NCBI GenBank assembly: GCA_001801685.1
Contig: MGYJ01000002.1
Coordinates: 1 to 38,191, forward strand
Length of the DNA stretch: 38,191 nucleotides
Direction: 5' to 3'
DNA from: Gammaproteobacteria bacterium RIFCSPHIGHO2_12_FULL_63_22
GTDB taxonomy: Bacteria > Pseudomonadota > Gammaproteobacteria > Xanthomonadales > Xanthomonadaceae
This document shows positions 22,466-37,560 of the stretch, one piece after another; position 1 is the stretch's first letter, and the number at the start of each line of letters is the position of its first letter. The notes below the pieces were generated by a model. It searched no databases. It worked only from the letters and a program-made list of their open reading frames with translations, and was not told the origin of the DNA. Both the position numbers and the translations under genes were made by a program.

Positions 22466-24832
22466 ATGTCCGTTTCTGCCAGCCAGTCGACCGCGCTTCC
22501 CACCCTGGACTCGCAAGCCCTGCCGCGCCGCGTGCGCGAATTGCTGAAGTCGGTACTGAAAGTCATGTCCCCGGAACTCGAGCGCGGCGTCGACGGCGCC
22601 ATCCGCGAGTTCGAACAACTGCTGTATCGGCAGATCGAAGCCAGCATGGAGAAGTCGCTGGGCGAGCAGTGGCAGATCGCCCAGGACAAGGTCGCGCACT
22701 CGCGCCCCGACATCGTGCTGAACTTCATGAATGCGCTCGAGGCCGAGATGGCCAACCTGCAGGACCCGCAGATCGTGCGCGGCCAGTTGCAGGCCAGGCA
22801 CCGGCGCGGCGATGAACTCGCCCTCGTCAACGACCTGGAAATCGAAGAGACCAGCGCACTGACCGACGCCGCCACGCGCGCGGAACTTCAGCACAGCCTG
22901 CAGCTGTTCCTGCTGGGGCAACGCTTCGGCGTGCTCGCTGGGCGACCGGCCTTCGACGTTGAAATGCTCCCGGTCGGCCCGCAGGCCCTGTGCCGGTCAC
23001 TGCGACGCGCAACCGAGCGACTGGAACTCGATGTCCAGGCGCGCCTGCTGTTCTTCCGCGCGTTCGAACGCCAGGTGATGCCGCTCTTCGGCAACCTGGT
23101 GGAAGCGGTGAATGCCGAGCTCGCCCGCAGCGGCGTGCTTCCCAACCTGCAATACGTGCCGATCCGCGCGCGCCGCGTCGAACAGAAACCCGGTGCCGGC
23201 ATGTTGCAGGAGATCATCGACCACGGGCTCAGCCTGTCCGGCAGTTCGACCGAACGGACGGCGCGAACCGTGCTTCGAAACCGTTCCGGAAGTTTCGAAG
23301 GCGAGGCGGCCAACGCCATTCCACCCGACCTGGCAAGGCAGGCCGCGGAGTTGTTGATGTCGATGGCGCGCGGCCACGGCGACATCGCCAACGACCAGGG
23401 ATACAACCTGCTGCGCCAGCTCATGTCCAGTCGCCGGCAGTTGCTGGGCAAGCTCAATCCCGATCGCAATCGCGACAGTCGCGAGGCCCCGCACGTGGTT
23501 GGCGCCGCGGACCTGCAGGAGGCGCTGCGCGGTATGCAGCATCGTCCGATCTCGCCAGTGATCGCCCACGGCCGGGCCACGCCGCGCAATGTCAGCCATC
23601 TCAAGCAGGACATGCTCGCCTTGCTGCGTCGCGTCTCCCCGAACCAGGAGGCGCCCGCGTTGTCGGAGGAACACAACGACGCGCTCGACCTGGTCGGCAT
23701 GCTTTACGACAATCTGATGCGCGACGTGAAGCCAGGCAGCAACGCCGCCGCCCTGCTTTCGAAAATGCAGGTGCCCTTGATGCGCGTGGCCTTGCAGGAT
23801 TCCGGGTTCTTCACGCGCCACGAGCATCCGGCACGCCAGATGCTGAACACCATCGCCGAAACCAGCACGCACTGGCTCAGCGATGACGATAGCGATGGCC
23901 TGGCCAAGCAGATGCATTCCATCGTCGATCGCGCGGTGCAGGACTACAAGGGCGATCCAGCGGTGTTCAATGACGTGGTGCATGAGCTGATCTCCCACCT
24001 TCAAATCCTGTCGAGGAAGGCAGAGGTGGCCGAGCGGCGCCACGTCGAGGCCGCGCGTGGCAAGGAAAAGCTCACCCTCGCGCGGGAACACGCATCCCAG
24101 GCTGTCGAGGCGCTGATCAAGGCCCAGAAGCTGCCGCGCTTCACCCGCACCATGCTCAGCCAGGCATGGACCGACGTGATGGCGCTGACGGCCTTGCGCC
24201 AGGGCGAGGATTCGCTGGCCTGGAAACGACAGTTGCTGGTGGCCGAGCGCCTGATCGAAATCTCGCAACTGCCCGAAGGCACGCACCCCGACCAGCTCGA
24301 TCCCGAGCGCGGCCTGCAGCGCGAGATCGAGGAAGGTCTGGCCAAGGTCGGCTACCAGGGCGACGATGTCGCCGCCATCGCCCGCCGCCTGGTGCATCCC
24401 AACGACAAGGACGACACCAGCAGCCGCACTGAATTGACCATGCGCCTCAAGGCGCAGGCTCGCCTGGGCGAGGAACTTCCCAGCAAGCGTGGTCGGCGCA
24501 TTCCGCTGACCTCGGCCGAAGAAGCCGAGATGGAACGCATCCAGCAGGCGCCGGTCGGCACCTGGTTCGAATTCGTCATCAATCCGCAGGGTGATCGCGT
24601 GCGCCGGCGCCTGTCCTGGCTCAGTACCGCCACCGGCGATGCCTTGTTCGTCAACCAGCGCGGCCAGAAGAACGCCGAATACACGCTCGACAGCCTGGCG
24701 CGGCTGATGGCTAAGGGCCAGGTCGCCATCGTCGAGGAAGACAAGACCAGCGCAATTGATCGCGCCTGGGAAAACGTGCTGAACGCGCTGCGCTCGTTCG
24801 CGGTGCCCGGTGATTCCGAGGTGGCCCAATGA
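22466..24832 (+). CDS. DUF1631 family protein
   Basis: A 788-aa soluble, largely helical protein that I recognise as DUF1631, a family without an established biochemical function. Visible segments are an N-terminal helical region (SQALPRRVRELLKSVLKVMS), then DIVLNFMNALEAEMANLQDP and LARRHRRG-type basic stretches. The C-terminal domain (about 690-785) is WFEFVINPQGDRVRRRLSWL followed by LFVNQRGQKNAEYTLDSLARLM; that part looks like a PilZ-like beta barrel with an RxxR-type stretch, which is my inference. GGAGGGG precedes the ATG. Its stop overlaps the start of a PilZ gene (ATGA), so it likely works with c-di-GMP signalling. Confidence 0.85.
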   Translation: MSVSASQSTALPTLDSQALPRRVRELLKSVLKVMSPELERGVDGAIREFEQLLYRQIEASMEKSLGEQWQIAQDKVAHSRPDIVLNFMNALEAEMANLQDPQIVRGQLQARHRRGDELALVNDLEIEETSALTDAATRAELQHSLQLFLLGQRFGVLAGRPAFDVEMLPVGPQALCRSLRRATERLELDVQARLLFFRAFERQVMPLFGNLVEAVNAELARSGVLPNLQYVPIRARRVEQKPGAGMLQEIIDHGLSLSGSSTERTARTVLRNRSGSFEGEAANAIPPDLARQAAELLMSMARGHGDIANDQGYNLLRQLMSSRRQLLGKLNPDRNRDSREAPHVVGAADLQEALRGMQHRPISPVIAHGRATPRNVSHLKQDMLALLRRVSPNQEAPALSEEHNDALDLVGMLYDNLMRDVKPGSNAAALLSKMQVPLMRVALQDSGFFTRHEHPARQMLNTIAETSTHWLSDDDSDGLAKQMHSIVDRAVQDYKGDPAVFNDVVHELISHLQILSRKAEVAERRHVEAARGKEKLTLAREHASQAVEALIKAQKLPRFTRTMLSQAWTDVMALTALRQGEDSLAWKRQLLVAERLIEISQLPEGTHPDQLDPERGLQREIEEGLAKVGYQGDDVAAIARRLVHPNDKDDTSSRTELTMRLKAQARLGEELPSKRGRRIPLTSAEEAEMERIQQAPVGTWFEFVINPQGDRVRRRLSWLSTATGDALFVNQRGQKNAEYTLDSLARLMAKGQVAIVEEDKTSAIDRAWENVLNALRSFAVPGDSEVAQ

Positions 24833-25187: not shown

Positions 25188-25209
25188 GACCGGTGCGGCG
25201 CCGCCGGTC
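25188..25209. terminator. Hairpin between convergent PilZ and GGDEF-EAL genes
   Basis: GACCGG...CCGGTC with an inner G-U and G-C pair makes an 8-bp stem that touches the stop codon of the minus-strand gene. No U-tract is visible; the position between converging genes is the only support for termination. Confidence 0.3.
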
Positions 25210-27865
25210 AACGCATGAAGTAAGCCAGCTCGGGGCGATGGACGTGGAAGCCCTGCGCGTAATCCACGTCTGCCTCCCGCAATATTTCGATCGTCTGCGC
25301 GTCTCCCACCCACTCGGCCACCACCTTCAGCCCCAGTTGATGGCCGATGTCGGTCACCGCGCGCACGATCGATGCGCTGATCGGGTCGGTCTGCAGGTTT
25401 CGGATGAAACTGCCGTCGATCTTCACGTAGTCCACCGGCAGGTTCTTCAGGTAACCGAAGGACGCCATGCCCGCACCGAAGTCGTCCAGTGAAAACTTGC
25501 AGCCGACCTTGCGCAGCGTGCCCATCAGTTCCACCACGCGGATCATGCTGGCGACCGCAGCGGTCTCGGTGATCTCGAAGCAGATGGACGCGGGCGGCAC
25601 GCCGTAGCGCTCGAGCCGCTCGAGCACGAAGGGCGCGAAAGTATCGTCCTCGATGGTCAGCGCCGACAGGTTGATGGCGCACATGTGCACCTGGCGTCCC
25701 TTCGGGTCCAGGCGATTGAAATTCGCAAAGGCAGTTTCCACCACCCAGCGATCGAGTTGCAGCATCAGGCCGAAACGTTCCGCCGCCGGGATGAAGGCGC
25801 CGGGCGGCACCATGGTGCCGTCCTCGTCGCGCAGGCGGATCAGAAGCTCCATGTGCAGGCCTTCGCCGTCCTGCGCAGGATGCAGCCCCGCCAGTTCCTG
25901 GAAGTGAAGCACGAACCGGTCGTCAATCAGCGCCTGGCGCAGGCGACTGGCCCATTCCATCTCGCTGCGCCGGAGCATGGTGTCGGCGTCCTTTTCCGAA
26001 TAGAGCTGCACGCGGTTGCGGCCGCGTTCCTTCGCCATGTAGCAGGCTGTGTCGGCCAACGACAGCACTTCGCGCTGGCTCATGCCGGGCCGGTCCAGCA
26101 GCACCAGGCCGACGCTCACGCTTACCGCATAGATGCGCTGCTCCGAACTGAACACGAAGCCGTCGATCTCCAGGCGCATGCGCTCGGCGAATTCCAGGGC
26201 TTGTTCGCGGGTCGCCGACTCGAGCAGGATGCCGAACTCGTCGCCACCCAGCCGCGCCAGCGTCTCGCCCTCGAACAGATGGCTACCCAGCAGGCCTGCG
26301 AGTTGCGACAACAACTGGTCGCCCACGTTGTGGCCGGAGGTGTCGTTGATGATCTTGAACTGGTCAAGGTCGAAGTACAGCAGGGCGCTGGACGGACCGC
26401 CCGCATCCACCCGTTCCAGCGCGGCGTCCAGGCGCCGGCCGAACTCGCGGCGGTTGTACAGGCCGGTCAGCGGATCATGCGCGGCCTGGTAGAACAGCAT
26501 TTCGTTCAGGTCGCGCAACTCGGTGATGTCGTTGGCCACGGCCAGCAGGTGCGGGCTGCCGTCCAGGTCGATGCGCGACACCGACAGCGTGGCCCAGAAC
26601 GGCGAGAATTTCTCCCCGGCGAAGCGCAGCGGAAGATTGCGCATCGGCAGGTCATCGATGATCACCTGCCGGATTTTTTCCTGCACGGTCACGTCATCGA
26701 AGATGTCCCTGACCTGCACCGGCTCCTTCTCGGGATCGCCGAGCGCGAGGCGCTCGCGCGCCACCTGGTTGGCGTACACGAGCCGGCCGTCGGGCCGGGC
26801 CAGCAACACGAGGGTCGGCAACAACTCGTTCAAGGCACGGAAGCGTTCCTCGCTCTCGCGGTACTGCGCGGCCATGTCGCGGCCCAGCACCAATGCACGC
26901 GCGCGTGTATTGGCCATCGACCAGGTGAGCGAGGCGAGCAGCAGGCTGGCAAGCACGCCGCCGGCCAGGGTGAGCGCCGGCAACCACAGCGGACCGCCGC
27001 CACCGGGGTGGCCGGTCAGTTCCATGCGCCAGGTCCTGCCGCCGTATTTCACGTCGTTCGAAAACCGGTAATCGAGTGCACCAGGCGCACCCACTGCGGC
27101 CGGTGACGAACGCGGGGAGTGGAACAGCGGCCAGCGTTGTCCGCTGGTGATGTCCACGACCCGCACGTCCATCGTTTCCCGCGTCTCCGCGGGCACCGCG
27201 CTTTCGAGCAACTTGCTCACCCGGAACGACACGGCGATCGAGCCGATGAATCGTTGCCGTCGTTCGGCTTCGCTCCAGGGCGGCTCGCCCGGGGAAAATG
27301 CCGGTAGCCGGATGGTGATGCCGTCACTCGGACCCGGCAAGCCCAGTCGCTGGATCAACGTGAATGACCCTGACATCGCCGGCTGGTCGGTATCGCGGGA
27401 CATCGCCACGGCCCGCAGGTTCAAGGGTTGCGTCGCCAGGTCGAGGCCGGCCAGCCGCTCGTTGCCGGGGCCCGGTGCGACCATGGTCGTGATGAAGTGT
27501 TCGCGTCCGGTCTCCGGACTGACCCGTCGCTCGGAATAGGCAACCGCCTGCAGGCTCGGGAACAACTCGCGAGGACGCAGGTTGGAATAGATGCTGTCGA
27601 ATTCGCGCGGCGTCACCTGGTCCGATGCCAGGAACAAGGCCTGGACGGTGCGCACCAACAGGCCGCAGTTCTCGAGCTGGTTCTGCACGGCGGCAAAACT
27701 GCGCTCGGCGCGCCGCTCGAGCAGACTGCGTTCGGATCGCGAAATCGCCGACTGATGCAGCCAGGCGGCCGTCACCGCCAGCGTGAGGCCCGCCAGCAGC
27801 GCGCCCAGGCTCCATAGCCAGGCAGGTAGCCCGAGAAATCCGCCGTCGTCACGCCTGTCTTGCAT
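25208..27865 (-). CDS. CHASE-PAS-GGDEF-EAL membrane protein (c-di-GMP turnover)
   Basis: An 885-aa inner-membrane signalling protein. TM1 (about 15-37) and TM2 (about 293-317) flank a periplasmic CHASE-type sensor (FAAVQNQLENCGLLVRTVQALF, then EFDSIYSNL). A PAS domain (about 335-450) follows, then GGDEF (motif G540-GDEF-544, intact) and EAL (M672-E673-L-L). The inhibitory RxxD site before GGDEF reads FEGE, so product inhibition is probably absent. EAL metal and catalytic residues look present: N in CAINLSA, E in CFEITET, DDFG, K in YVKIDGSF, and Q in YAQGF. The usual AEGVE segment reads AEWVGD. Whether it acts as cyclase, phosphodiesterase or both cannot be read from sequence. Confidence 0.95.
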   Translation of the reverse strand: MQDRRDDGGFLGLPAWLWSLGALLAGLTLAVTAAWLHQSAISRSERSLLERRAERSFAAVQNQLENCGLLVRTVQALFLASDQVTPREFDSIYSNLRPRELFPSLQAVAYSERRVSPETGREHFITTMVAPGPGNERLAGLDLATQPLNLRAVAMSRDTDQPAMSGSFTLIQRLGLPGPSDGITIRLPAFSPGEPPWSEAERRQRFIGSIAVSFRVSKLLESAVPAETRETMDVRVVDITSGQRWPLFHSPRSSPAAVGAPGALDYRFSNDVKYGGRTWRMELTGHPGGGGPLWLPALTLAGGVLASLLLASLTWSMANTRARALVLGRDMAAQYRESEERFRALNELLPTLVLLARPDGRLVYANQVARERLALGDPEKEPVQVRDIFDDVTVQEKIRQVIIDDLPMRNLPLRFAGEKFSPFWATLSVSRIDLDGSPHLLAVANDITELRDLNEMLFYQAAHDPLTGLYNRREFGRRLDAALERVDAGGPSSALLYFDLDQFKIINDTSGHNVGDQLLSQLAGLLGSHLFEGETLARLGGDEFGILLESATREQALEFAERMRLEIDGFVFSSEQRIYAVSVSVGLVLLDRPGMSQREVLSLADTACYMAKERGRNRVQLYSEKDADTMLRRSEMEWASRLRQALIDDRFVLHFQELAGLHPAQDGEGLHMELLIRLRDEDGTMVPPGAFIPAAERFGLMLQLDRWVVETAFANFNRLDPKGRQVHMCAINLSALTIEDDTFAPFVLERLERYGVPPASICFEITETAAVASMIRVVELMGTLRKVGCKFSLDDFGAGMASFGYLKNLPVDYVKIDGSFIRNLQTDPISASIVRAVTDIGHQLGLKVVAEWVGDAQTIEILREADVDYAQGFHVHRPELAYFMR

Positions 27866-32185: not shown

Positions 32186-32256
32186 GTCCCGCATTGTATC
32201 CGTACGCCGCCGGAGGTTAAGCTTCCTGAGTACGGAATAAACCCTTGGGGGGGCCA

Positions 32257-33210
32257 ATGCATTCCGATGTCCGCGACAAAGCGGCGCCAGCAGCGCGCGT
32301 AATGAAAGCTGCAGCCGTGTTGGCAGCACTGTTTGTTTCCTCGCAGGCCATTGCGCAGGTCGCAGCCCTGGGCAGGCTGGAACCCTGGCAGGGGACCTTG
32401 AAGATCACCGCCCCCATCACCCCCGAATCCACGGGCGGCACGGTGCTGGCCAAGTTGCTGGTCGAGCGCGGCGACAACGTGAAGGCAGGCCAGCTGCTGG
32501 CGGTCACCGAGGCCGCCGAACTGATGAAAGCGCAGGTCGAGCAAGCCAAGGTCGAACGCGAATACCAGCGCCGGATGGCAGCCGCCGCGAACAGTGAGGC
32601 CACCTCCGCCTGCGTCCAATCCGTGGTTGCCGGGCAGGTCTCGAAACGTCGCCAGGACTTGCTGGCCCGCAAACTTTCCTCGAACGAAGACGCCGAGCGC
32701 GCCAAGGGCGACGCCGATGCCGGCAAGGCGGCCTGCGCCGCAGCGCGCGCCAACGCCAGCGCCGCTGCGGCGGCAGTCAGCGTGGCAGACGCGCAGCTCA
32801 ACCGCGCTGCCGCAGTGCAGCAACGCGCCTACATCCGCGCACCGGTCGCCGGCCGCATCCTGGACATCAATGCGCGTCCCGGCGAGATGATCGGACCGAA
32901 GGGCATCGTCGAACTCGGCCAGGTGAATCGCATGTACGCCATTGCCGAGGTCTATGAGACCGACATCGGCCGCGTCAGCGTCGGGCAGCGCGCCACTGTC
33001 ACCAGCCGCGCGCTGGGCCGCCAGCTGGGCGGCGTCGTCGAACGCATCCGGCAACAGGTGCGCAAGCTCGACCAGATCGGCACCGATCCCGCCGCCCGCA
33101 AGGACGCGCGCATCGTCGAGGTCGAGATCCGGTTGGACGATTCGGCCCCGGCGGCCGGATTGACCAACCTGCAGGTCGAAGTCGCCATCGGTCGTCGTCC
33201 CGGACGATGA
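32257..33210 (+). CDS. DevB-like periplasmic adaptor of an ABC exporter
   Basis: HlyD/DevB family membrane-fusion protein, expected to bridge the permease to an outer-membrane channel. From ATG 32257 it is 317 aa. It has an N-terminal hydrophobic segment resembling a signal peptide (KAAAVLAALFVSSQAIA) and the DevB hallmark ALGRLEPWQGTLKITAP. A biotinyl-lipoyl half (VERGDNVKAGQLLAV) follows, then a coiled-coil hairpin (about 85-190, Ala-rich), then YIRAPVAGRILDINARPGEMI and a beta domain. A later ATG at 32302 would start exactly at the signal peptide but lacks a ribosome-binding site. The 71-bp gap after valS contains a 7-bp inverted repeat (TCCGTAC/GTACGGA) and no clear promoter. Its stop overlaps the next gene by 4 bases. 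No TolC-like gene is in the window. Confidence 0.85.
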   Translation: MHSDVRDKAAPAARVMKAAAVLAALFVSSQAIAQVAALGRLEPWQGTLKITAPITPESTGGTVLAKLLVERGDNVKAGQLLAVTEAAELMKAQVEQAKVEREYQRRMAAAANSEATSACVQSVVAGQVSKRRQDLLARKLSSNEDAERAKGDADAGKAACAAARANASAAAAAVSVADAQLNRAAAVQQRAYIRAPVAGRILDINARPGEMIGPKGIVELGQVNRMYAIAEVYETDIGRVSVGQRATVTSRALGRQLGGVVERIRQQVRKLDQIGTDPAARKDARIVEVEIRLDDSAPAAGLTNLQVEVAIGRRPGR

Positions 33211-34355
33211 GCGCGCCCCTGGGGTGGATGCAACTTCGCCACCGGCCGCTGCGCCTGCTGGTGGCGCTGCTCGGCATCGGTTTCGCCGTGCTGCTGATCA
33301 TGATGCAGCTGGGCTTCCGCTCGGCATTGTTCGAAAGCGCGGTGCGTTACCACGAGCGCTTCAACTACGACATCGCGCTGTTCAGTCCCGACAGCGTGTT
33401 CATCGTGCGGCCGGAGCAATTCTCCATCCGTCGCCTGTACCAGGCGCAAGGCGATCCGGCAGTTGAATCGGTAGCCCCGGTCTATATCTTCCCCGCAGTG
33501 TGGAAGAACCCGTGGACCCACCAGCGCCGCACCATCAACATGATCGGCTTCAACCCGGCCGACGACCTGCTGGACTCCAAAGGTTTCGACGAATCGCGTC
33601 CCTTGCTGCAGGACCAGGACGTGGTCATCTTCGACGCGCGTTCACGACCGGAGTTTGGTCCCGTCGCACAAACGCTGCGCGACCGCGGCATCGTCATCAC
33701 CGAAGTCAACAATCGCGAAGTCCGCGCCATCGGCCTGTTTGAAATGGGCACGTCGTTCGGCATCGACGGCAGCCTGATGACCAGCGACGACAACTGGCTG
33801 AGGATGTTCCCCGACCGCTCGCGCAACGACATCCAGCTCGGCCTGATCAAGCTCAAGCCCGGCAGCGACGCCGACCAGGTGCGCGACCGCCTGAAGGCCG
33901 CCTTGCCCAAGGATGTGCTGGTGCTGACCAAGGCCGATTTCGTCGCCCGCGAAAAAGCCTACTGGAACCGCGCCACGCCGATCGGCTACGTGTTCGCATT
34001 CGGCGCCATCATGGGTTTCGTGGTCGGCGCGATCATCGTCTACCAGATCCTGTTCGCCGACGTGTCCGAGCACCTGCACGAATACGCCACGCTGCGCGCC
34101 ATGGGTTATCCGAATCGCTTCGTCGCCGGCATCGTGCTGCAACAGGCGGCCATCCTGGGCGTGCTGGGTTACCTGCCTGGGCTGGCGTTGTCGCATTTCC
34201 TGTACGGGCGTGCGGCGGCGGCCACCTTCCTGCCCCTGCACGTGACTTTCGAACGCGCAGCGACGGTCTTCGTGCTCACGCTCGGCATGTGCGCGATCTC
34301 GGGTTTGCTGGCAGTGCGCAAGGTTCGCAAGCTCGATCCGGCTGAGGTGTTCTGA
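33207..34355 (+). CDS. DevC-like FtsX-family ABC permease
   Basis: A 382-aa membrane subunit of a MacB/DevC/LolC-type (type VII) ABC system, which export or extract substrates by mechanotransmission rather than by a classical channel. TM1 is at about 17-37, a ~220-residue periplasmic domain follows, then three helices at about 261-283, 308-332 and 350-371. The coupling-helix region is SEHLHEYATLRAMGYPN and the terminus is RKLDPAEVF; both are typical of DevC. It overlaps the adaptor gene by 4 bases (ATGA) and the ATPase gene by 1 base (TGATG), showing tight coupling. Confidence 0.93.
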   Translation: MSAPLGWMQLRHRPLRLLVALLGIGFAVLLIMMQLGFRSALFESAVRYHERFNYDIALFSPDSVFIVRPEQFSIRRLYQAQGDPAVESVAPVYIFPAVWKNPWTHQRRTINMIGFNPADDLLDSKGFDESRPLLQDQDVVIFDARSRPEFGPVAQTLRDRGIVITEVNNREVRAIGLFEMGTSFGIDGSLMTSDDNWLRMFPDRSRNDIQLGLIKLKPGSDADQVRDRLKAALPKDVLVLTKADFVAREKAYWNRATPIGYVFAFGAIMGFVVGAIIVYQILFADVSEHLHEYATLRAMGYPNRFVAGIVLQQAAILGVLGYLPGLALSHFLYGRAAAATFLPLHVTFERAATVFVLTLGMCAISGLLAVRKVRKLDPAEVF

Positions 34356-35689
34356 TGGCCGCCTCGCCGATCGTCATCGAAAACCTGTCCCACCACTTCG
34401 GCAAGGGCAACCTGCGCAAGCAGATCCTGTTCGACGTGAACGTCGAGATCCCGCAGGGCGAGATCGTCATCGTCACCGGGCCGTCGGGCTCGGGCAAGAC
34501 CACGCTGCTGACCCTGGTCGGCGCACTGCGATCCACCCAGGCCGGCAGCGTGCGCGTGCTGGGCGACGAACTGCGCGACGCATCCCCGGCCACCCTGGAA
34601 AAAGTGCGGCGGCAAATCGGTTTCATCTTCCAGCAGCACAACCTGCTCGGTGCGCTCAGCGCGGTGCAGAACGTCGAGCTCGGCCTGCGCGTGACCGGTC
34701 GCTACAACGCGGCGGCGCGGCGCAAGACGGCCATCGCCATGCTCGAAGCCGTCGGCCTCGGCCAGCGCATCCACTACAAGGCCGAGCAGCTTTCAGGCGG
34801 CCAGCGCCAACGCGTCGCCATCGCGCGCGCGCTTGCCGCGGAACCGTCAATGCTGCTGGCCGACGAGCCTACCGCCTCGCTCGACAAGCAGTCGGGACGC
34901 GAAGTCGTGGACCGCATGAAGAAGCTGGCGAAGGACCAGGGTTGCACCATCCTGCTGGTCACCCACGACAACCGCATCCTCGACATCGCCGATCGCATCG
35001 TGCACCTCGAAGATGGCAGGCTGTCGAACTTCTCCGACTCGGTGCTGGCCAACAACCAGCAGATGATGCAGTTGCTCGCCGACAGCCGGCAGAAGCAGGA
35101 CATTGGCGCCGAAGTGGAAGCGATGGACGAAGCGGCCTTCCACGACCGCCTGCAGGAGATCACCGACGAGGCCGTGCGCTTCCTCGACGCCACCGCCCTG
35201 GCCAACGACACCGTCTTCCAGGCCATGCTGGAACAATCCCTGTTCGCGATCACGCGCAAGCTGGCGCAGTTGGTGAACGCCGAGCGCTCGTCGCTGTTCC
35301 TCGTTGATCGCCCGAGCCAGACCCTGCTGCTGCGCATCACCGAAGGCCTTGCCGGTCGCCAGGAAATCCGCATCCCGATCGGCAGCGGCATCGCCGGCGC
35401 GGTGGCCGCCAGCGGTAAATCCGAGCGCGTTGCCGATGCCTACCAGGATCCGCGCTTCAATCCGGACGTGGACAAGATGTTCGGCTACCACACGAAGTCG
35501 ATCATGACGATGCCGATGTTCGACCGCCGTGGCGACGTGTTCGCCGTCGCCCAGTTGCTCAATCGTCGCGACGGCCAGGCCTTCACCGAAGAAGACGAAA
35601 AGCACATCGCAGACCTGCTGGCCTCCATCGCCCGCATCTTCGAGGGCTTGCAGGTGGGCCGGCGCAGCGCGCTGAAGGAACGCACGTGA
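34355..35689 (+). CDS. DevA-like ABC ATPase fused to a C-terminal GAF domain
   Basis: Residues 1-~225 form a complete DevA/LolD-type ATPase: Walker A GPSGSGKTT (42-50), Q-loop (FQQHN), signature LSGGQ (146-150), Walker B LLADEP (D170, E171) and H-loop H204. A linker (about 226-284) follows, then a GAF domain (about 285-432). The GAF carries QDPRFNPDVDKMFGYHTKS and an NKFDE-like motif: N403-R404, F410, then D414-E415 in the spacing F-x3-DE. That motif marks cyclic-nucleotide-binding GAF domains of phosphodiesterases and some adenylate cyclases; Lys is Arg here. DevA proteins are normally ~225-250 aa, so this 444-aa fusion is unusual. The start overlaps devC, and the end overlaps the phospholipase gene (GTGA). 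Confidence 0.93.
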   Translation: MAASPIVIENLSHHFGKGNLRKQILFDVNVEIPQGEIVIVTGPSGSGKTTLLTLVGALRSTQAGSVRVLGDELRDASPATLEKVRRQIGFIFQQHNLLGALSAVQNVELGLRVTGRYNAAARRKTAIAMLEAVGLGQRIHYKAEQLSGGQRQRVAIARALAAEPSMLLADEPTASLDKQSGREVVDRMKKLAKDQGCTILLVTHDNRILDIADRIVHLEDGRLSNFSDSVLANNQQMMQLLADSRQKQDIGAEVEAMDEAAFHDRLQEITDEAVRFLDATALANDTVFQAMLEQSLFAITRKLAQLVNAERSSLFLVDRPSQTLLLRITEGLAGRQEIRIPIGSGIAGAVAASGKSERVADAYQDPRFNPDVDKMFGYHTKSIMTMPMFDRRGDVFAVAQLLNRRDGQAFTEEDEKHIADLLASIARIFEGLQVGRRSALKERT

Positions 35690-37560
35690 TTGAAGTCGGG
35701 GACAGCACCCACCCGACTCCCATCGACGCCAGCACCGTTGCCATGCTGGAAGCGTATTTCGGCATGCGGCTCGCCGGTGAACCGGGCCTGCGCGACCTGC
35801 TGGACGTGGTGGAGGTCGCTGGCGGCCAGTGGCTGTTCCGCCAGGACGAACCGGGCTCGAGCATGTACCTGCTGGTGCGCGGCCGCCTTCGGGTCTGGCG
35901 CGATGTCGCCGATTCGCCCGGTGAAGAAGACGTACTGCTTGGCGAAGTGGCGCCCGGCGAAAGTGTCGGCGAAGCCGGCCTGCTGACCGGCCATCCACGC
36001 AGCGCCGGCGTGCGCGCCATCCGCGACAGCCTGCTGGTGCGCGTGGACCGCAAGGGCCTGGAATTGATGGCCCGGCAAAATCCTGCGCTGGTGATGAAGC
36101 TCGCTGCCAGCGTCGCCGACCGGATGCGGCAGAACATGCAGCCGCGTCCTGCCGGCAGCCGCGTGCTGAAGACGATCGCGTTATTGCCGCTGGACGATTC
36201 ACCGCGCGTCACCGGCTTCTGTGAAGCCCTGGTGGCATGCCTGGCCGCGCAAGGCACGATCGTCGACCTGCATCGCGAGACGCTCGGCAAGGCAGGCGCA
36301 CCGACCGACTCCCTGCATGAGATGCAGTACCCCGACGCGAACCTGAAGCACTGGCTCGCCGACCAGGAATCCCGGTTCGACCACCTCGTGTTCCGCTGCG
36401 ATCCGTCGGCGACGCCGTGGTCGGCGTTCTGCATGCGCCAGGCCGACCTGGTGCTGCGAATTGGCGATGCCGGCAGCGACCCGGCCTTGCGCACCTGGGA
36501 GTCCGAACTCGAGGCCACCCACGAGCGCGCGGGTGGGTCGAACCAGGCGCTGGTGCTGATGCAGCCGGAAGCTGCGACGCCGATCACCGGCACCCTCGCC
36601 TGGCTGGAAGCGCGCCAGATCGATTTCCACCTGCATGTCCGCGCCGACCGGCCCGATGACGTGCAGCGCGTGCTGCGCATCATCTCCGGCCGCGCCACCG
36701 GCCTGGTGCTGGGCGCCGGGGCGATTCGCGGCTTCGCCCACCTGGGCGTGTACCAGGCCATGCAGGAATCGGGCGTCGCGCTCGACTGGGTGGGTGGTTC
36801 GAGCATCGGCGCCATCATGGCCGCTGCGATGTCCTACGACTGGCCCGCCGCGCACGCCATCGACGTCGCCTACCGAGCCTTCGTCAAGGGCAAGCCATTT
36901 TCCGATTACACCTTGCCGCTGGTGTCACTGCTGCGCGGCCGGCGCATGCGTCGCCTGTTGCGCGAGCACTTGCCGGGCAATATCGAAGACCTGCCGATCC
37001 CCTTCTTCTGCGTTTCCAGCAACCTGTCCACGGGTGCCTCCAACGTGCACCAGCGCGGGCCATTGTGGCTCGCGCTCAGCGCAAGCGCCGCATTGCCCGG
37101 CGTGATGCCGCCCGCCGTGCACAAGGGCCAGCTGGCCATCGACGGTTCGGTGTTGAACAGCCTGCCCGTGGACGTGATGCAGGCGATGCCGGTGGGCCGG
37201 GTGATTGCGGTGGACTTGTCCACGCGCAAGGAATACCTGCTCGACTACAAGCACGTGCCGTCGGCATGGACCTTGCTGCGTTCGCGGCTGTTCGGCGGCA
37301 AGCGGCGTATCCGCGTGCCCAGCCTCGCCACCCTGATGCTGAAGTCCACTGAAATCGGCACCGTGGCGCGCGTGCGCGAACTCGGTGCGCGCGCGGATTT
37401 GCTGCTGGTGCCGTCCGTGTACCAATTCAACATCCTGGACGTCTCGTGTTTCCACAAAGTCGTCGAAGCCGGCTATGCGCATGCCCGCGAAGCGATTCCT
37501 GCGTGGATCGAGCGCACTGCGAAACCGGCTACTCCGGCGGAAGCAACTCGCGAGCCATGA
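35686..37560 (+). CDS. NTE-type phospholipase: cyclic-nucleotide-binding domain plus patatin domain
   Basis: A 624-aa protein. Residues ~35-150 are a CRP-like CNB domain with an intact phosphate-binding cassette (G95-E96 ... R105-S106-A107). Residues ~160-340 match the linker domain of neuropathy target esterase (CDPSATPWSAFCMRQADLVL). A patatin domain follows with oxyanion region GAGAIRG, nucleophile Ser373 in G371-S-S-I-G375, and Asp486 in DGS (DGG/DGA in most relatives). NTE-family enzymes hydrolyse (lyso)phospholipids. There is no signal peptide, so it likely acts at the cytoplasmic face of the membrane. The GTG start overlaps the ATPase-GAF stop. The last 32 bases overlap rimI on the other strand. 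Confidence 0.93.
   Translation: MIEVGDSTHPTPIDASTVAMLEAYFGMRLAGEPGLRDLLDVVEVAGGQWLFRQDEPGSSMYLLVRGRLRVWRDVADSPGEEDVLLGEVAPGESVGEAGLLTGHPRSAGVRAIRDSLLVRVDRKGLELMARQNPALVMKLAASVADRMRQNMQPRPAGSRVLKTIALLPLDDSPRVTGFCEALVACLAAQGTIVDLHRETLGKAGAPTDSLHEMQYPDANLKHWLADQESRFDHLVFRCDPSATPWSAFCMRQADLVLRIGDAGSDPALRTWESELEATHERAGGSNQALVLMQPEAATPITGTLAWLEARQIDFHLHVRADRPDDVQRVLRIISGRATGLVLGAGAIRGFAHLGVYQAMQESGVALDWVGGSSIGAIMAAAMSYDWPAAHAIDVAYRAFVKGKPFSDYTLPLVSLLRGRRMRRLLREHLPGNIEDLPIPFFCVSSNLSTGASNVHQRGPLWLALSASAALPGVMPPAVHKGQLAIDGSVLNSLPVDVMQAMPVGRVIAVDLSTRKEYLLDYKHVPSAWTLLRSRLFGGKRRIRVPSLATLMLKSTEIGTVARVRELGARADLLLVPSVYQFNILDVSCFHKVVEAGYAHAREAIPAWIERTAKPATPAEATREP

Follow-up and report, generated by a model that had tools for sequence, protein, structure and literature searches.

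A conserved gene unit in gamma-proteobacteria joins a DevBCA-type exporter with a GAF domain to a CNB-patatin phospholipase

Four closely packed genes at positions 32245-37560 (forward strand) of the window, the whole 38,191 nt stretch of contig MGYJ01000002.1 that was analysed, raise the question of why an exporter and a phospholipase, each with a predicted nucleotide sensor, are encoded together. ORF calls with Pfam and NCBIfam searches identify the products as DevB, DevC, DevA carrying a GAF domain (DevA-GAF), and a protein with CNB, NTE_Ploop and patatin domains (Table 1). The initial annotation had described overlaps of 1-4 bases between successive genes; these were confirmed as 4, 1 and 4 nt, in gene order, with the start codons at the overlaps checked. 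DevB, DevC and DevA all score above the NCBIfam curated cut-offs, and the exporter is classed as a member of the MacB superfamily (Type VII). Machines of the DevBCA/MacB type export lipidic or peptide cargo by way of TolC-type channels, and phospholipids are deacylated by patatins of the NTE type.

Table 1. Positions of the genes of the four-gene unit and of two other genes in the window.
Feature	Position	Strand	Matches and remarks
DevB-type periplasmic adaptor	32245..33210	+	TIGR02971, 7.7e-61, 206 bits (cut-off 129)
DevC-type permease (MacB/FtsX family)	33207..34355	+	TIGR01185, 2.7e-133, 444.6 bits (cut-off 290)
DevA ATPase with C-terminal GAF	34355..35689	+	TIGR02982, 6.4e-101, 336 bits (cut-off 296)
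NTE-type phospholipase	35686..37560	+	PF00027, PF24179, PF01734; GTG start
CHASE-GGDEF-EAL protein	25208..27865	-
DUF1631 protein	22466..24832	+	1.8e-146

The adaptor starts at TTG 32245 or ATG 32257, has an N-terminus that by eye is signal-peptide-like, and also matches Pfam HlyD_D23 (2.5e-14), while the permease matches FtsX (3.5e-17) and MacB_PCD (4.2e-8). DevA-GAF consists of an ATPase domain (about residues 1-230), a linker and a GAF domain (292-426; Pfam GAF, 1.2e-16), and its Walker A, Walker B, signature and H residues are conserved in every aligned row that reaches them. The last gene product contains a CNB domain (42-131; cNMP_binding, 3.9e-17), an NTE P-loop-like region (161-324; NTE_Ploop, 1.2e-22) and a patatin domain (340-497; Patatin, 3.6e-22) with Ser373 and Asp486. 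No secretion signal is visible by eye in its sequence, and it is predicted to be a cytoplasmic NTE-type phospholipase. The operon sits between valS and a convergent GNAT gene. Ten OEP (TolC-type) matches are found on five other contigs of the genome and none on the contig of the operon. A DUF1631 gene and, 4.4 kb upstream of the operon, a gene for a CHASE-GGDEF-EAL protein are also present in the window; clustered relatives of the latter occur near the operon in L019, L024 and L030, which may be chance.

Searches of the PDB with the GAF profile placed the cAMP-binding CyaB2 nearest (1ykd, 2.5e-63), with PDE5 (3.5e-46), PDE2 (1.1e-39) and PDE10 also close; the remaining GAF domains are much weaker (3e0y, 3.5e-10; PtsP-type, 2.2e-6), except 4mcw at 3.3e-33. 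The residues of CyaB2 listed as contacting cAMP in the available part of PMC4411481 are R291, T293, I308 and D356, and their counterparts in the window are R311, S313, I328 and D373. Across 39 deduplicated GAF sequences, including three from patatin-free loci (L006, L052 and L072), R is found at the first position in 35, S or T at the second in 39, V or I at the third in 35 and D at the fourth in 39. According to excerpts of PMC11977230, the NKFDE motif distinguishes cyclic-nucleotide GAF domains, and altering its residues weakens binding without direct contact. The window has N403-R404, F410 and D414-E415, which is NKFDE with K replaced by R; N, R/K, F and D are each present in all 39 sequences and E in 38. 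As the structure model of DevA-GAF is weak (pLDDT 66.6, pTM 0.42, with values of 69-91 in blocks over residues 301-430), its structure matches were used only alongside the sequence search.

In the CNB domain the cassette is formed by G95-E96 and P104-R105-S106. E96 and R105, together with S373 and D486 of the patatin domain, are retained in all 35 readable rows of 36. The model of this protein (pLDDT 80.9) has PlpD as its best PDB match, followed by CapV, CapE and CRP-type CNB domains. Both features that had been read from the letters of this locus, a GAF domain with an NKFDE-like motif on the ATPase and an intact phosphate-binding cassette in the CNB domain, were thus borne out. Judged by these residues, the two sensors look competent for cyclic nucleotide, and binding is predicted for each.

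A scan with a profile of the linker and GAF domain, using one genome per species, detected at least 80 loci. Among the matches listed, L012-L033 encode DevA-GAF proteins with 48-59% identity to that of the window and are from metagenome-assembled genomes (MAGs) of gamma-proteobacteria, assigned to Lysobacterales/Xanthomonadales, Wenzhouxiangella, Chromatiales, Woeseiaceae, Steroidobacteraceae and Pseudomonadales, or only to Proteobacteria or Gammaproteobacteria. A patatin gene adjoins the exporter genes at all 22 of these named loci of the gamma-proteobacterial branch listed, downstream in 17 and upstream in 5, though in L020 it is interrupted by the contig end. The linkage thus persists when the gene order changes; four of the five loci with the patatin gene upstream form one supported clade in the permease tree. 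The order of all four genes is the same in G018, G042 and G052. Overlap of the DevA-GAF and patatin genes is common but not universal (15 of 25 junctions scored), and four of the ten junctions that lack it belong to loci with the patatin gene upstream.

The same linkage is seen across 398 genomes of the order, a set that overlaps the list of named loci, so that the two are not independent collections. The DevA-GAF profile matches 42 of these genomes at E 1e-25; in 32 of them the E-value is at most 1.2e-85, and in the other 10, which match through the GAF part alone, it is no lower than 5.8e-35. The patatin profile matches 127 genomes, 32 strongly and 95 at no more than 425 bits, and the strong sets for the two proteins are the same 32 genomes. 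DevA-GAF and patatin are on one contig in all 32, the patatin continuing on another contig in G177 and G191. In the other 95 genomes the CNB-NTE-patatin is more distant and no strong DevA-GAF match accompanies it; unlike these relatives, the patatin of the operon sits in an exporter cluster. Whether phospholipase and exporter genes stay together outside this genome had been set as a test that could refute a joint unit, and linkage was found at all listed loci of the gamma-proteobacterial branch and in all strongly matching genomes of the order. A chance arrangement is rejected, as the genes are neighbours at 22 of 22 loci among the matches listed and occur in the same 32 of 398 genomes.

In a class sample of 369 genomes there were two matches, the window itself and a weak match to the GAF part in G663 (1.8e-43), and no further strong DevA-GAF match. 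No relative is encoded on viral contigs, where one stretch matched a pattern. Within the genus of the window, DevA-GAF was detected at E 1e-60 only in G018 among 26 other genomes. A valS match is present in 26 of the 27 genomes; valS and the GNAT gene are adjacent in 19, the exporter follows valS in two (the window and G018), and in five there is a contig end or no GNAT match within the valS flank. With the valS site mostly exporter-free and G018 providing the only other DevA-GAF match, few members of this genus have gained or kept the unit.

Patatin is absent from the DevA-GAF stretches read in Nostoc, Leptolyngbya and an acidobacterium. On a plasmid of Nostoc sp. C052 typed as conjugative (L006, NZ_CP040275.1, 1-12325), a DevBCA set with DevA-GAF lies among PKS, carbamoyltransferase, diaminobutyrate transaminase and NRPS genes, which offers a lead to its cargo, and no patatin match was found within the 17 kb read. 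In the acidobacterium (L052, 9278-13103) a separate gene 1.5 kb downstream of the DevBCA-GAF set encodes a CNB protein. Free-standing CNB proteins are also encoded near the operon in L022 (1725-2491) and L023 (12452-13144), that of L022 adjoining another ABC transporter whose similarity to RbbA is below the cut-off. In L008 (12061-13047) and L009 (11801-12817) a fifth gene overlaps the end of the patatin gene and predicts a calcineurin-like phosphoesterase with a lipoprotein-like start (Pfam search with the L008 product). The DevA-GAF reading frame of L015 (9318-10654) is split in the MAG contig.

Pairwise distances of DevA-GAF and the permease correlate (rho 0.542; none of 1000 permutations as high), and those of the permease and the patatin do so moderately (rho 0.333; 4 of 1000). 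Between DevA-GAF and the patatin there is no such agreement (rho 0.045, n=21, reached in 347 of 1000 permutations; untrimmed, rho 0.166, n=23, 163 of 2000), which counts against a joint unit. The Wenzhouxiangella lineages L024/L030 and L027/L031 group in the permease tree and not in the patatin tree.

A possible source of the messenger was found near some of the operons. PF00211 has 47 matches in 28 of 33 operon genomes, and four of the five genomes with no match fall below the mark of 90% completeness and 5% contamination, G200 being the exception. It is present in 27 of 32 genomes with the operon versus 111 of 366 without, a comparison confounded by kinship. In 8 of the 33 a class III cyclase is encoded on the same contig, 4.1-13.0 kb from the GAF domain, where uniform placement would give 0.47 genomes. 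Since five of the eight are from one genus, four lineages is the fairer count, for which the chance of at least four is 0.001 and not 1e-8. In the window genome PF00211 has no match on the contig of the operon.

The linked genes differ in arrangement. In L025 a divergent gene for a receiver-cyclase comes first, then, on the strand of the exporter, genes for a hybrid kinase and a receiver (Pfam); the last of these ORFs stops 2 nt ahead of the called adaptor ORF. Sequence clustering indicates similar genes in L012 and L014, the cyclase of L012 having also been identified with Pfam. Larger cyclases are found near the operon in L027, where Pfam predicts HisKA, receiver and cyclase domains, and in L030 and L031, whose cyclases were found with a local profile seeded with five linked cyclases and that of L020; receiver-domain checks cover three of the nine distinct linked cyclases. 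The cyclase gene of L020 is convergent to DevA-GAF, and in Leptolyngbya (L072), where DevA has two GAF domains, DevC and DevB are separated by a cyclase gene. Two further ORFs were left uncounted, both in the 8 of 33 and in the nine: one in L028 that overlaps DevA-GAF (cyclase 3mr7, 1.3e-6; no Pfam match; R at the base-specifying site) and one in L029 with a weaker match (0.0066).

The residues that specify the base bear on which nucleotide is made. Adenylyl cyclases are described in part of PMC4215837 as having K with D, and guanylyl cyclases E with C, S, T, H, A or G; the same source reports that Cya2, with E and G, has equal affinity for both substrates. The first site is E in all nine linked cyclases, and the second is G in five (L012, L014, L025, L168 and L170) or A in four (L027, L030, L031 and L171), so by these residues they would be of the guanylyl type. 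The best solved relatives of the L025 cyclase are Cya2 (2.4e-54) and a chimera (2.5e-64) built on Cya2 (PMC5995499, in part). Ten of 39 unlinked cyclases were also examined: four have K and T, one has E and T, two could not be placed, and in three the second site is outside the alignment, the first being K in two (window genome and G018) and E in one. As E is carried by two of the ten (L132 and L133), it is enriched in the linked cyclases and not confined to them. The best cyclase of the window genome has K and, by eye, a following DDVFGDAVN, which suggests a K-D enzyme of the adenylyl type; its tail, also by eye, is FHA-like. The ligand is accordingly given as cAMP or cGMP, since the relatives point to cGMP and the window's own genome to cAMP.

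Each part of the unit has known counterparts. DevBCA-HgdD (TolC), which exports heterocyst glycolipid in Anabaena, has the B-C-A order that is also seen in the window, whose three exporter parts exceed the DevB, DevC and DevA cut-offs and whose genome has TolC-type genes elsewhere. In the window, though, the ATPase is fused to a GAF domain, and the exporter is linked to a phospholipase. The GAF domains of CyaB2 and the PDEs share the pocket and the NKFDE-like residues but are fused to cyclase or phosphodiesterase rather than to an ABC ATPase. In NTE-type patatins with CNB, a single polypeptide likewise combines the three domains CNB, NTE P-loop-like and patatin. A comparable pairing is YbbAP-TesA, in which a MacB-superfamily transporter is genetically joined to a lipid hydrolase, and PDB searches with DevA, by sequence and by model alike, give YbbA/YbbAP entries among the best matches. 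According to the accessible text of PMC12646458, a lysophospholipase can act as the partner of a Type VII transporter. TesA has another fold and is an esterase of the periplasm, whereas the hydrolase of the window is a patatin without visible secretion signal, and here exporter and hydrolase both carry nucleotide sensors. The unit is proposed as an analogue of YbbAP-TesA that responds to a signal and keeps its hydrolase inside the cell, and we infer that the two activities are coupled. The earlier statement that no described system with this combination is known holds for the open-access literature searched, where no description of the four genes together was found; the arrangement of known parts is real, conserved and undescribed in that literature.

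On balance we lean towards a single functional unit, in which a DevBCA exporter and a cytoplasmic phospholipase would be under allosteric control of one messenger class, cAMP or cGMP. The earlier inference that a second messenger gates export and lipid hydrolysis is partly supported, by the linkage outside this genome, by the site residues of both sensors and by the cyclases near the operon in relatives; lysophospholipid would be one candidate cargo. A signal would raise the nucleotide through a class III cyclase, which in some relatives has a receiver domain and is beside a histidine kinase gene. Binding to the GAF domain at the C-terminus of DevA would set the ATPase rate or dimer state, and binding to the CNB domain would free or position the patatin, which may then act at the inner leaflet to deacylate either phospholipid or a cargo that is acylated. 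The lipid product or lipidic cargo would be moved outward by DevBCA together with a TolC-type channel whose gene lies elsewhere. It is conceivable, though we put it forward tentatively, that a two-component system drives the cyclase and that its product gates the exporter via GAF and the phospholipase via CNB post-translationally. Lipid cleavage and lipid export might, equally tentatively, be switched together in such a circuit, with a cyclase of guanylyl or adenylyl type.

The same nucleotide could instead gate both proteins with no product passing between them. The exporter would then carry an unrelated cargo, for instance a glycolipid or lipopeptide, and the phospholipase would adjust inner-membrane lipids on its own. 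The Nostoc C052 DevBCA set, surrounded by PKS and NRPS genes and without a patatin match in the 17 kb read, would suit such an arrangement, as would the DevBCA-type pumps reported, in the available parts of PMC8277102 and PMC6161253, to export heterocyst glycolipids or give drug resistance. The patatin is nevertheless always present in the gamma-proteobacterial branch, at every listed locus and in every strongly matching genome, and co-regulation without coupling is considered rather unlikely. That the sensors are degenerate or repurposed, serving dimerisation, membrane docking or another ligand next to incidental cyclases, appears improbable. It is common for GAF and CNB folds to bind a different ligand or no ligand at all, and the window has no PF00211 cyclase on its contig, but the ligand-site and NKFDE-like residues are kept in at least 35 of 39 GAF domains, the cassette E and R in all readable CNB domains, and the proximity of cyclases exceeds the chance estimate.

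An abortive defence system of the Pycsar or CBASS kind, in which a cyclase product lets the CNB-patatin damage the membrane, would account for the matches of the patatin model to the CBASS proteins CapV and CapE after PlpD, of the CNB domain to PycTIR (8.2e-10) and of the L025 cyclase to PycC models (down to 1.7e-23). These matches, however, sit in domains common to many other proteins; the L025 cyclase resembles Cya2 much more strongly, the L020, L028 and L029 sequences match no PycC model, and the strong-match patatin is never without the exporter in the gamma-proteobacterial branch, making a defence role very improbable.

To our knowledge, cases of ABC exporters switched by cyclic nucleotide are few, and the list of bacterial cGMP targets is short. 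The operon offers two predicted cyclic-nucleotide targets, to which some relatives add a predicted source of the messenger nearby. It would tie phospholipid cleavage to export in gamma-proteobacteria, and opens a direct way to test what CNB-patatins do and what DevBCA exporters do outside cyanobacteria.
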